Assembly (NCBI GenBank): GCA_013204345.1
Contig: JABMOB010000008.1
Coordinates: forward strand, 1-37,174
From: Parcubacteria group bacterium
GTDB taxonomy: Bacteria; Patescibacteriota; Minisyncoccia; Phycocordibacterales; JABMOB01
Direction of reading: 5' to 3'
DNA: 37,174 bases
Shown: one piece after another, positions 14,396 through 19,868 of the stretch
Layout of the letters: each line of letters begins with the position of its first letter
How positions within the stretch are numbered: position 1 is the stretch's first letter
Notes under the pieces: model-generated
Database searches by the model: none
What the model saw: only the letters and a program-made list of their open reading frames with translations
Told to the model about the DNA's origin: nothing
Program-made: the position numbers and the translations under genes

Positions 14396-14451
14396 GATGT
14401 ATTTTAATTAATTAATAATTACGAATTATGAATTACGAATTTTACTCTCTA

Positions 14452-14756
14452 TTTACCCGCACACTAACTTTACTTTTGCAGAAGGCTTCTCATAATTCTA
14501 CCTTTGAGATGCGTTCTGGCTTGGCCTCTAAGTTTCAAATTTGATTCACGCTCTCTCGCATCGCCTTCTGCTAGATATGCTTCGTAGTATATCAAAGTAA
14601 AGGGTTTGCGCGATTTTGTGGACCGAACTTTCCCGTTGTTATGTTCAGAAAACCTTTTTACTAAATCTTTGGTTGATCCAATATATAACTCACTATCTTT
14701 GCTACTTTTTAAAACATATACATAGAACATAAAAGCAAAATTAGTGTGCGGGTAAA
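14452..14756. mobile_element. GIY-YIG gene cassette bounded by 16-bp inverted repeats
   Basis: TTTACCCGCACACTAA (14452-14467) and its exact inverse TTAGTGTGCGGGTAAA (14741-14756) enclose the GIY-YIG gene almost without extra sequence. The first 13 bases, TTTACCCGCACAC, recur inside the pilin-type gene at 19278-19290, where the inverse GTGTGCGGGT also recurs. Terminal repeats plus a nuclease gene suggest a small mobile cassette; the mechanism is unknown and no target duplication was seen. The arms could also act simply as a gene-enclosing terminator pair. Confidence 0.55.
14470..14730 (-). CDS. GIY-YIG nuclease-domain protein
   Basis: From ATG 14730 the protein is 86 residues (MFYVYVLKSSKDSELYIGST). 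An extension to 14796 crosses the right inverted repeat and is discarded. The catalytic core is visible: the paired YVYVL and LYIGST strands, Arg in KDLVKRFSEHN, and the C-terminal helix with Glu in ARERESNLK. Small UvrC-like GIY-YIG proteins of this size (YhbQ/UPF0213 type) are common and mostly uncharacterised; the fold cuts DNA by a single metal-dependent step. Its tight enclosure by inverted repeats, which also appear in a pilin gene 4.8 kb away, suggests a role in moving or processing those repeats, but this is inference. Confidence 0.88.
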   Translation of the reverse strand: MFYVYVLKSSKDSELYIGSTKDLVKRFSEHNNGKVRSTKSRKPFTLIYYEAYLAEGDARERESNLKLRGQARTHLKGRIMRSLLQK

Positions 14757-15065: not shown

Positions 15066-15133
15066 TTTATGTCATTCTGGACTTGATTCGGAATCCAGTC
15101 CAAGTGAAATTAGTGAGGGGTGATGATTTTTAT
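15066..15133. mobile_element. 63-bp palindrome-bearing insertion in the pilB leader
   Basis: The pilB leader (15031-15160) matches the pilC leader (16930-17002) on both sides but has extra sequence flanked by TTTAT at 15066-15070 and 15129-15133. The insert starts gtcattctggacttgattcg and contains the palindrome ctggacttgattcggaatccag (15077-15098). This resembles an interspersed repeat I remember from many bacteria (GGACTTGATCCGGAATC type). It looks like a short insertion with a 5-bp target duplication. Confidence 0.6.
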
Positions 15134-15160
15134 AGTCGCTCCGCTCCTTATAAATCAATC

Positions 15161-16909
15161 ATGCACATAGAGGAAAAACAACTGAAGGATTTTATTCTAG
15201 ATTCAGGTCTAGTTTCTAAAGCGGATTTCATTGTCGCAGAAAAAAAAGCTAAAGAAGAGGATGAAGATGCCGGCAAGATTTTGGTGTCTATGGGGAAATT
15301 GGGAGAAGATGATCTTCGGAAAATTAAGGCGTATGTTTTGGGGATTCCTTTTGTTGACCTTAAAGAGCAAAAAATAAATTTTGATGTGCTCTCTTTAGTT
15401 CCAGAGCCTATTGCTCGTAACCACAATATTGTTGCTTTCAAAAAAACCAATGATGCTTTGGAGGTCGCTATGCTTGATACGGGAGATTTGACTGCGATTG
15501 ATTTTGTAAAAAAGAAGGTTGGTTTGAAGGTTTTACCTAGACTAACAGATAGTGAGTCAATGAAAAATGTTCTTTTGCAATATCAAAAGAGTCTCAAAGC
15601 GGAATTCGGGGATATTATTCAAAAAGAAGCGACGACTTTAAAGACTATTTCTGAAGAAGATGGAGAAAATGCAAGCGAAAGTGATTTGAAAAAATTGGCG
15701 GAAGATTTACCGGTAGTCAGAATTGTGGATACGCTTTTGAAACACGCTATTATACAAAATGCTTCAGATGTACATATAGAACCATTGGAAGGGCAGGTAG
15801 TGGTGAGGTATAGGATAGACGGTCTCTTGCATGATGCTATGGTACTTCCCAAAAATGTAGCGCCAAGTATCATCGCCCGTATCAAAGTACTCTCAAATCT
15901 AAAACTTGATGAGAAAAGACTTCCGCAAGATGGCAGATTTAAAATAGATTTAAATGGAGAGAAGATTTCTTTTCGTGTTTCTACTTTACCTATTTATTTT
16001 GGTGAAAAAATCGTGATGCGACTTTTGCGAGAGAACGCTTCAGGCTTTACTCTTGAAGCATTAGGTTTTCATGGTGAGGGTCTAGAAAGGCTTCACAGAG
16101 CCACAAAACTTACCACTGGAATGATTTTGACCACAGGCCCTACTGGTTCTGGGAAAACCACGACGCTTTATACAATGTTGGACATTTTGAACACACCAAA
16201 TGTAAATATTTCTACGATTGAAGATCCTGTGGAGTATCAAATGAATCGTATCAACCAAACTCAGGTCAGACCGGAGATAGGTTTTACGTTTGGTAATGGA
16301 CTCCGTACACTTGTGCGACAAGACCCAGATATAATAATGGTTGGTGAGATCAGAGACAACGAAACAGCGTCACTTGCCATAAATGCGGCATTGACCGGGC
16401 ATCTTGTTCTCTCCACCCTGCACACAAACTCTGCAGCTGGAGCTGTGCCACGTCTGATTGATATGAAAGTAGAACCATTTTTGCTTGTATCGACGATCGA
16501 TATAATTATTGCTCAGAGATTGGTGCGAAAACTTACGGATAAAAAAGAGAAATATTTCTTGACACGCGCTGAAATTGAAAATCTTCGTAAAGAAGTAGAT
16601 ATTGACAGAGTGCTCGATTTTCTTATTACCGAAAAAGTTATCAATAAAAAGACCACGTGGGATAAAATACCTTTTTATAGACCGAGAGATACTAAAGGCG
16701 AAGATGGATATAGTGGTAGGTTTGGTATTCACGAAGTATTGAAAATGTCACCATCAATCAAAGAGCTTATTGTGCAAGGGAAAACGAATAAAGACATTGA
16801 GGAGCAGGCAAAAAAGGAAGGGATGCTCACTATGATTGAAGATGGGATTTTTAAGGCAGTGCAAGGTTATACGACCATAGAAGAAATTTTGAGGGTGGTG
16901 TCGGAATAA
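15161..16909 (+). CDS. pilB: Type IV pilus assembly ATPase PilB/GspE
   Basis: From ATG 15161 the protein is 582 residues (MHIEEKQLKDFILDSGLVSK). A longer frame from 15083 would translate the inserted repeat and is rejected; TATAAA at 15149-15154 lies six bases before 15161. The N-terminal MshEN/T2SSE-N type domain spans about 1-150. The secretion ATPase core has Walker A GPTGSGKTTTLYT (about 326), the Asp box, Walker B IIMVGEIRDNE (about 390) and the His box HTNSAAG. The Zn-binding tetracysteine motif of E. coli-type GspE is absent; that region is Cys-free. PilB drives pilus extension from the cytoplasmic face through PilC. It is the first gene of the operon. Confidence 0.95.
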   Translation: MHIEEKQLKDFILDSGLVSKADFIVAEKKAKEEDEDAGKILVSMGKLGEDDLRKIKAYVLGIPFVDLKEQKINFDVLSLVPEPIARNHNIVAFKKTNDALEVAMLDTGDLTAIDFVKKKVGLKVLPRLTDSESMKNVLLQYQKSLKAEFGDIIQKEATTLKTISEEDGENASESDLKKLAEDLPVVRIVDTLLKHAIIQNASDVHIEPLEGQVVVRYRIDGLLHDAMVLPKNVAPSIIARIKVLSNLKLDEKRLPQDGRFKIDLNGEKISFRVSTLPIYFGEKIVMRLLRENASGFTLEALGFHGEGLERLHRATKLTTGMILTTGPTGSGKTTTLYTMLDILNTPNVNISTIEDPVEYQMNRINQTQVRPEIGFTFGNGLRTLVRQDPDIIMVGEIRDNETASLAINAALTGHLVLSTLHTNSAAGAVPRLIDMKVEPFLLVSTIDIIIAQRLVRKLTDKKEKYFLTRAEIENLRKEVDIDRVLDFLITEKVINKKTTWDKIPFYRPRDTKGEDGYSGRFGIHEVLKMSPSIKELIVQGKTNKDIEEQAKKEGMLTMIEDGIFKAVQGYTTIEEILRVVSE

Positions 16910-19229: not shown

Positions 19230-19238
19230 GTGATTTTT

Positions 19239-19868
19239 ATGATAAAGAAAATATTTAAAAAGAAATACTGTCGAGGGTTTACCCGCACACAAAACCTAAC
19301 TTCAAATTCTATCCGAGATAAAAAATTTCAATCGAATTTTATTTCCGTGATTAAATCGAAACATAACTTTGTGTGCGGGTTTACTCTCATAGAAATGCTT
19401 GCTTATATTGCAGTACTCTCTATCATTCTTGTTCTTATTGTGACAAGTCTATCCTCTCTTATAACTTCAGAAAATCGTGTCAATATTGAAAAAAATATAG
19501 AAACTTCTGCTAGTACAGCTCTTGAGAGAATGACTCGTGATATACGAGATGCTAAAAGTATTGATACTGCTGGGAGCACATTTGGAAGCAATTCTAGCGT
19601 GTTGTCGCTGAATACAACTGATGTCGGAGGTAATCCAAAAACGGAGGCATTTTATCTAGATAATAATATTTTGAAAATATCAGAAAATGGGACGGAAACT
19701 GGGGCACTCACTTTCTCTAGTAGTAGGGTGACAAAACTTGTTTTCAAGTCTTTGGATAGTGGTAACAGTAGTGCCATTCAAATAAAAATAACGATAGAAA
19801 GTGGAATCGGACAATATCTCAAATCGGAAACTTTTTATTCTACAGTAATTTTACGTGGTTCTTATTAA
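19239..19868 (+). CDS. Minor pilin, GspJ/PilW-like, with 34-codon insertion
   Basis: From ATG 19239 (AGGTGA at 19228-19233 overlaps the previous stop) the protein has 209 residues. The prepilin motif VCG|FTLIEMLAYIAVLSI lies at 45-62, cleavage after Gly47, Glu52 at +5. The leader is far too long for a prepilin because codons for a second GFT (residues 13-15) and 34 extra codons precede the real one. The insert is bounded by the direct repeat GGGTTTAC (19275-19282, 19377-19384) and by inverted 13-mers ACCCGCACACAAA/TTTGTGTGCGGGT. The body (SASTALERMTRDIRDAKSI) fits PilW/GspJ. It is open to question whether the peptidase still processes it or an internal start is used. Confidence 0.83.
   Translation: MIKKIFKKKYCRGFTRTQNLTSNSIRDKKFQSNFISVIKSKHNFVCGFTLIEMLAYIAVLSIILVLIVTSLSSLITSENRVNIEKNIETSASTALERMTRDIRDAKSIDTAGSTFGSNSSVLSLNTTDVGGNPKTEAFYLDNNILKISENGTETGALTFSSSRVTKLVFKSLDSGNSSAIQIKITIESGIGQYLKSETFYSTVILRGSY
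19275..19384 (+). repeat. In-frame insertion with inverted ends in the GspJ-like gene
   Basis: Direct repeat GGGTTTAC at 19275-19282 and 19377-19384 (102 bases apart). Inverted ends ACCCGCACACAAA (19281-19293) and TTTGTGTGCGGGT (19368-19380). The end sequence is shared with the GIY-YIG cassette at 14452-14756. Confidence 0.8.

Follow-up and report, generated by a model that had tools for sequence, protein, structure and literature searches.

The window analysed here, a contiguous stretch of 37,174 nucleotides from a Parcubacteria group bacterium, contains a putative autonomous element of 297 bp on the minus strand (positions 14456–14752) with the ends CCCGCACAC...GTGTGCGGG. Its sole open reading frame (ORF; 14470–14730, minus strand) encodes a GIY-YIG nuclease of 86 amino acids, identified by PF01541 (E = 6e-17) and by protein alignments, and the protein carries the C-terminus LKLRGQARTHLKGRI that is typical for the CCCGCACAC clade. 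Terminal inverted repeats (TIRs) bound the unit: including the outer TTTA, the left arm occupies 14452–14477 on the plus strand and the right arm, read on the minus strand, 14731–14756. Ends of 16 bp had been proposed for this unit; the inverted repeat exists, but it extends over 26 columns (TTTACCCGCACACTAAYTTTRCTTTT), of which 24 match between the arms and two are mismatched. Since the bordering TTTA and TAAA are inverted, this copy has no exact target duplication.

The original prediction held further that these ends are shared with an insertion in a pilin gene. Arms of the type ACCCGCACAC are present at all four places concerned, i.e. 14455 (+), 14744 (-), 19281 (+) and 19371 (-). At a tolerance of one mismatch, five arm matches occur in the window against 0.56 expected, a number reached in none of 100 shuffles. 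The second pair of arms delimits a gene-free, MITE-like element of 98 bp (19282–19379, plus strand) that has the same ends as the GIY-YIG unit and lies in frame within a pseudopilin ORF (19230–19868, plus strand). It is flanked by a target-site duplication (TSD) TTTA (19278–19281 and 19380–19383, plus strand). Deletion of the 98 bp together with one TTTA joins the flanks to read KKYCRGFTLIEMLAYI, a normal prepilin start, and the empty site restores RGFTLIEML; the motif GF(T/S)L(I/V)E is likewise uninterrupted in the pilin orthologues of relatives. In the fold of the 98-bp unit (z = -4.2), the two ends pair and close a hairpin. At 19341–19380 the insertion also contributes an in-frame GTG (GTGATTAAATCG...), which could be the start of a short leader of normal length (MIKSKHNFVCGFTLIE).

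Gene-bearing and gene-free copies in related genomes

In an order-wide scan the extended arm ACCCGCACACTAANNTTG was matched in 27 of 397 genomes, and a reversed-pattern control matched almost none. Arm pairing in the loci of related genomes yielded 55 distinct units of the CCCGCACAC family, mostly of approximately 59–77 or 123–138 bp, or about 300 bp if GIY-YIG-bearing; two of them (297 and 308 bp) carry the nuclease gene. Exact 4-bp target repeats, mainly TTTA, TAAA, TATA or CAAG, flank 21 of the 55 units, compared with a mean of 3.8 and a maximum of 10 in 1000 permutations of the flanks. Outside the window, gene-free copies are found on three further contigs of the genome under study, namely C36 and, with target repeats TAAA and CAAG, C24 and C30. 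By folding, short copies of the family form a stem with two apical hairpins; copies of 68–76 bp at loci L047 and L035 were seen to fold Y- or T-shaped around a three-way junction, with a long stem and two small hairpins.

A search with a strict arm-plus-gene pattern gave six matches in genome contigs and none in viral contigs; one of the six, L068, is a false match to a Bacteroidales ORF. Further copies with these ends around GIY-YIG genes, as had been anticipated, do occur elsewhere (L012, L046/L067, L069, L070, L071, L195, L211). The proposed pairing of an autonomous with a non-autonomous form is supported by genomes that contain both (G000, G036 and G279). In these three, the units of 59–138 bp are short, lack an ORF and have TIRs and TSDs in common with the autonomous element, as MITEs do; in G045, a gene-free unit of 74 bp bears the TIR of that genome's GIY-YIG element. 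Gene-free derivatives with the same ends, approximately 30–140 bp long, behave as MITEs of the GIY-YIG element. Two MITE-bearing genomes (G116, G347) have no close GIY-YIG match, and some others have a match around which no cognate TIR was detected. A separate observation is a tRNA-Ile gene at L019 (1155–1329) between two CCCGCACAC-type arms 175 bp apart, which could represent two remnants or a captured tRNA.

Small GIY-YIG genes and their terminal repeats across Patescibacteria

The order was searched with a profile of small GIY-YIG proteins, and each locus was tested for inverted repeats near the gene. The scan was anchored on the protein core; anchoring on the codons that begin and end the ORF loses those elements whose stop codon is part of the target. 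Over the order-wide set, other classes of the phylum and the MITE-bearing genomes, TIRs closely bracket 100 of 149 small GIY-YIG genes, as against 0 of 176 other ORFs of 75–115 amino acids in the same loci. Order-wide, 69 of 98 loci were positive at a score reached by 1% of shuffles, and a phylum-wide sample gave 17 of 28; about a third of the small GIY-YIG genes have no clear TIR. The TIR-bearing elements measure 258–322 bp, and their TIRs start with (T)CC(C/G). Exact 4-bp repeats were found at the two expected offsets in 16 of 56 gene-bearing elements (8 + 8; null means 0.65 and 0.45), an exact TSD being lost or absent in most. TSD length varies among clades: it is often 4 bp, and 5–7 bp in the tRNA-targeting clade.

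About ten further TIR families were recognized, each with its own GIY-YIG clade. The protein C-terminus LKLRG(Q/N)AR goes with the ends CCCGCACAC, KKDGKALGQLK with CCCCCACACC, KHHG/KHYG with CCCAGCAC, KRFSGS with CCCCTCAC, KTTQGG with CCCGTAGTAGA, KSYLTG with CCCTGTTAAATA, and KSGxGKRYL with CCCGTTAGAGA or CCCGTACGAAA. Among 88 elements, TIR similarity correlates with protein identity more strongly for residues 59–78 (Mantel r = 0.54; permutation maximum 0.07) than for residues 1–58 (r = 0.37), and nearest protein neighbours have their TIR in common in 74% of cases vs 14% of random pairs. TIR sequence tracks the protein clade, most strongly in the C-terminal segment, from which we infer that the C-terminal helix may read the ends. 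Part of the correlation arises because gene and ends have been inherited together as one unit, which is precisely what is argued here. Two side observations concern the clades. Genome G139 has eleven near-perfect, REP-like palindromes of 27 bp (CCCGTTAGAAAC...GTTTCTAACGGG) with ends of the KSGxGKRYL clade type. In the window, GGGGTGATGATTTTTATAGTC...TTATAAATCAATCATG (15119–15165) precedes an ORF starting near 15163, and a near-identical leader follows KSYLTG-clade genes at L060 (same genome), L111 and L144; the leader in the window is possibly a solo remnant.

The protein belongs to the GIY-YIG superfamily (PF01541, 6e-17), with Y3, Y5, Y16, G18, R26, H30 and E62 invariant in the alignment. 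Its closest solved structures are UPF0213 (1ZG2, E = 1.1e-13; Foldseek 1.8e-5) and Slx1, and the fold is related to I-TevI. Structure prediction was poor from the single sequence (pLDDT 57) and moderate for a five-sequence model (74.7). For unsaturated, reliably aligned gene pairs, leaving out L145/L216 (indel) and pairs saturated at synonymous sites, dN/dS was 0.04–0.14. On this codon evidence the gene is under purifying selection, and the protein is therefore used. Distant relatives only, with 36–41% identity, were found in phage and plasmid collections; a phage origin is thus unsupported.

An alternative reading takes the nuclease as cargo: a conventional transposase (DDE or HUH) working in trans, or host replication and repair acting on palindromes, would mobilise the TIR units. 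TIRs combined with a 4-bp TSD are typical of DDE transposition, and the absence of a close cognate gene from some MITE-bearing genomes also fits. So do genes in the same genomes that encode the nuclease-free four-helix bundle of the 23S rRNA IVP (S23), since inverted terminal repeats flank 23 of 30 such loci of the order (L271–L300); TIR-enclosed genes of this kind make a host process acting on palindromes conceivable. The IVP units, mostly 395–500 bp long, end in inverted arrays of degenerate 7–9-mers, unlike the TIRs of the GIY-YIG elements, and seem to form another class of small elements with TIRs in these genomes. The genome under study has IVP genes on contigs C2, C5 and C15, and directly outside the left arm of the window's GIY-YIG unit the sequence AATTACGAATTATGAATTACGAA (14419–14447) is similar to the arrays at the ends of IVP elements (cf. 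L293). Against the cargo reading, some ten TIR families with GIY-YIG genes of the matching clade would need many independent captures, and the gene is under strong purifying selection. Nor was any larger element with these ends seen among the loci examined: none with another transposase came to light in approximately 20 additional loci up to 10 kb long, their arms pairing at 63–138 bp and longer pairings reflecting neighbouring MITEs. Full-length copies of about 300 bp encode GIY-YIG only; no DDE, HUH or recombinase gene was found in them, and a Y1 transposase with HUH motif is absent, the sole gene product being PF01541. We regard the cargo reading as unlikely.

Mobility, empty sites and targets

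Elements with 72–82% identity over their entire length are embedded in unrelated flanks (unrelated flanks score approximately 16–29 in this comparison), and two such pairs reside within single genomes (L195/L211 in G279 and L122/L130 in G010). The same loop of the RNase P RNA gene is occupied in G031 and empty in G108 of the same genus; it is likewise occupied in G123, G205 and G260 and empty in the same-genus genomes G168, G283, G054 and G305. Empty sites, for which a search had been suggested, hence exist within genera, and the position of the cassette is not fixed in all relatives. In G205 a different RNase P stem additionally houses a hairpin that lacks the gene but shares its ends with the element in the loop. 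These sequence comparisons demonstrate movement of the unit as a block into different sites, and its mobility is well supported.

Stable hairpins are formed by the elements, many of which lie in intergenic DNA, so that the arms might be read as regulatory structures (terminators, attenuators) or as chance repeats, and not as ends of a mobile unit. However, the ends occur in matched pairs at approximately 66, 135 or 300 bp with TSDs and empty sites, and insertions are found in frame in the pilin gene and inside rRNA and RNase P genes. This highly improbable reading is refuted by the TSD and empty-site data.

Each GIY-YIG clade has its own preferred kind of target: ribosomal RNA (16S or 23S), loops of RNase P, the 5′ ends of tRNAs, or ATGA start codons. 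Rfam/ARAGORN placement located elements in the V1 region of 16S rRNA (L087, L088, L123), in 23S rRNA (L098, L102, L149, L153, L204), at the 3′ end of tRNA-Gly (L066, L067), and at the 5′ ends of tRNA-Ala (L080, L083, L198, L199), tRNA-Val (L063, L082) and tRNA-Lys (L240). RNase P RNA is the target at L084, L235 and L250 and, by alignment, at L086 and in G205 and G260. The CCCCTCAC clade accounts for seven loci at tRNA 5′ ends. Insertion there duplicates approximately 5–7 bp of the tRNA, and the acceptor strand is rebuilt by the GAGGGG end of the element; gene-free copies also occupy tRNA 5′ sites at L083, L198, L199 and L082. For one clade, 11 of 17 elements adjoin the ATG of a host gene, and the target supplies the TGA stop of the GIY-YIG gene (ATGA); named by eye from their N-termini, the hosts include transaldolase, phosphoglycerate mutase, exonuclease III and MscL.

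Repeated use of conserved sites (16S rRNA at L087, L088 and L123, RNase P RNA, tRNA 5′ ends), together with the relation of the fold to I-TevI, would also suit homing, in which recombination copies a free-standing endonuclease into an empty allele that it has cut; the palindromic ends would then be incidental or former target halves. Against this stand the duplicated targets, the gene-free copies that share their ends with the gene-bearing ones, and the many unrelated sites used by a single clade. Homing also copies flanks with the element, whereas here homology ends at the element ends. By Rfam, no intron was present at the element in the loci scanned, the hosts being rRNA, RNase P or tRNA; one group I intron lies near the element of L199, outside it. 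As the general explanation homing seems quite improbable to us; it could be a second route at RNA-gene sites.

A candidate GIY-YIG transposon and known systems

Taken together, the units are likely to represent a minimal TIR transposon of Patescibacteria, approximately 260–320 bp long, that encodes a single-domain GIY-YIG protein only and has given rise to MITE derivatives. This is probably a previously unrecognised class of very small transposons in which a GIY-YIG nuclease takes the place of a transposase. We infer that the nuclease itself moves the element through GIY-YIG catalysis. With somewhat guarded confidence we further favour the view that these are DNA transposons of a new superfamily, whose single-domain GIY-YIG protein of about 85 residues would perform both excision and target cutting for autonomous elements of about 300 bp, with clade-specific targeting of safe havens. 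The palindromic ends would form hairpin, cruciform or Y structures and be recognised by the C-terminal helix; the GIY-YIG domain would nick at the folded ends and then make a staggered cut at the target, and insertion would be finished by host repair or by direct strand transfer. Slx1 cuts branched DNA, an activity that suits element ends able to adopt a hairpin or cruciform shape. Most cuts by known GIY-YIG enzymes produce short 3′ overhangs, and we know of none of these enzymes that joins strands. Targets would be places where a palindrome does little harm, such as loops in rRNA and RNase P RNA, ATGA starts, and those tRNA ends whose sequence is rebuilt by the end of the element itself.

If true, this would add a class of nuclease to the enzymes that drive DNA transposition, with elements among the smallest conceivable autonomous transposons, and would account for the abundance of tiny GIY-YIG genes and short palindromic repeats in Patescibacteria. 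The link between clade and target (tRNA ends, RNase P loops, ATGA) would offer short, site-specific insertion systems for study. GIY-YIG elements with TIRs are not described in the open-licence literature searched, outside which lie most subscription journals and preprints. A study from 2024 on insertions in the rRNA genes of CPR bacteria placed GIY-YIG ORFs outside any intron and judged them apparently outside homing, and the passages considered here name neither TIRs nor target duplications, nor copies without the gene, nor non-rRNA sites (PMC11270868); the present elements plausibly explain the intron-less insertions in rRNA genes described there. A survey of the superfamily from 2006 raised, and left open, the question of molecular parasitism by members other than homing and restriction enzymes (PMC1564403), which becomes directly testable.

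Among known systems, homing endonucleases (I-TevI, Seg proteins) likewise combine a GIY-YIG catalytic domain with a selfish gene, but the elements here have neither an intron nor a separate DNA-binding domain and occupy unrelated sites with TSDs. Single-domain proteins of the UPF0213/YhbQ type are of the same size as the element protein; to our knowledge their genes are chromosomal and not TIR-bounded units. Penelope-like elements, which are eukaryotic reverse-transcriptase elements, are also mobile and have a GIY-YIG endonuclease, whereas no reverse transcriptase is present here. The Rickettsia palindromic elements, for which we know of no nuclease-encoding partner, resemble the pilin insertion as palindromic in-frame inserts of approximately 100–150 bp in protein genes. 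REP palindromes and their RAYTs, which are Y1 HUH proteins, similarly tie short palindromes in many copies to a small nuclease-type protein, but here the enzyme is GIY-YIG, with TSDs and TIR-bounded genes. With insertion sequences and MITEs the GIY-YIG elements have in common TIRs, short TSDs, and autonomous and gene-free copies with common ends; they differ from insertion sequences in encoding, within about 300 bp in all, just a nuclease of 85 amino acids in place of a DDE, HUH or recombinase enzyme.
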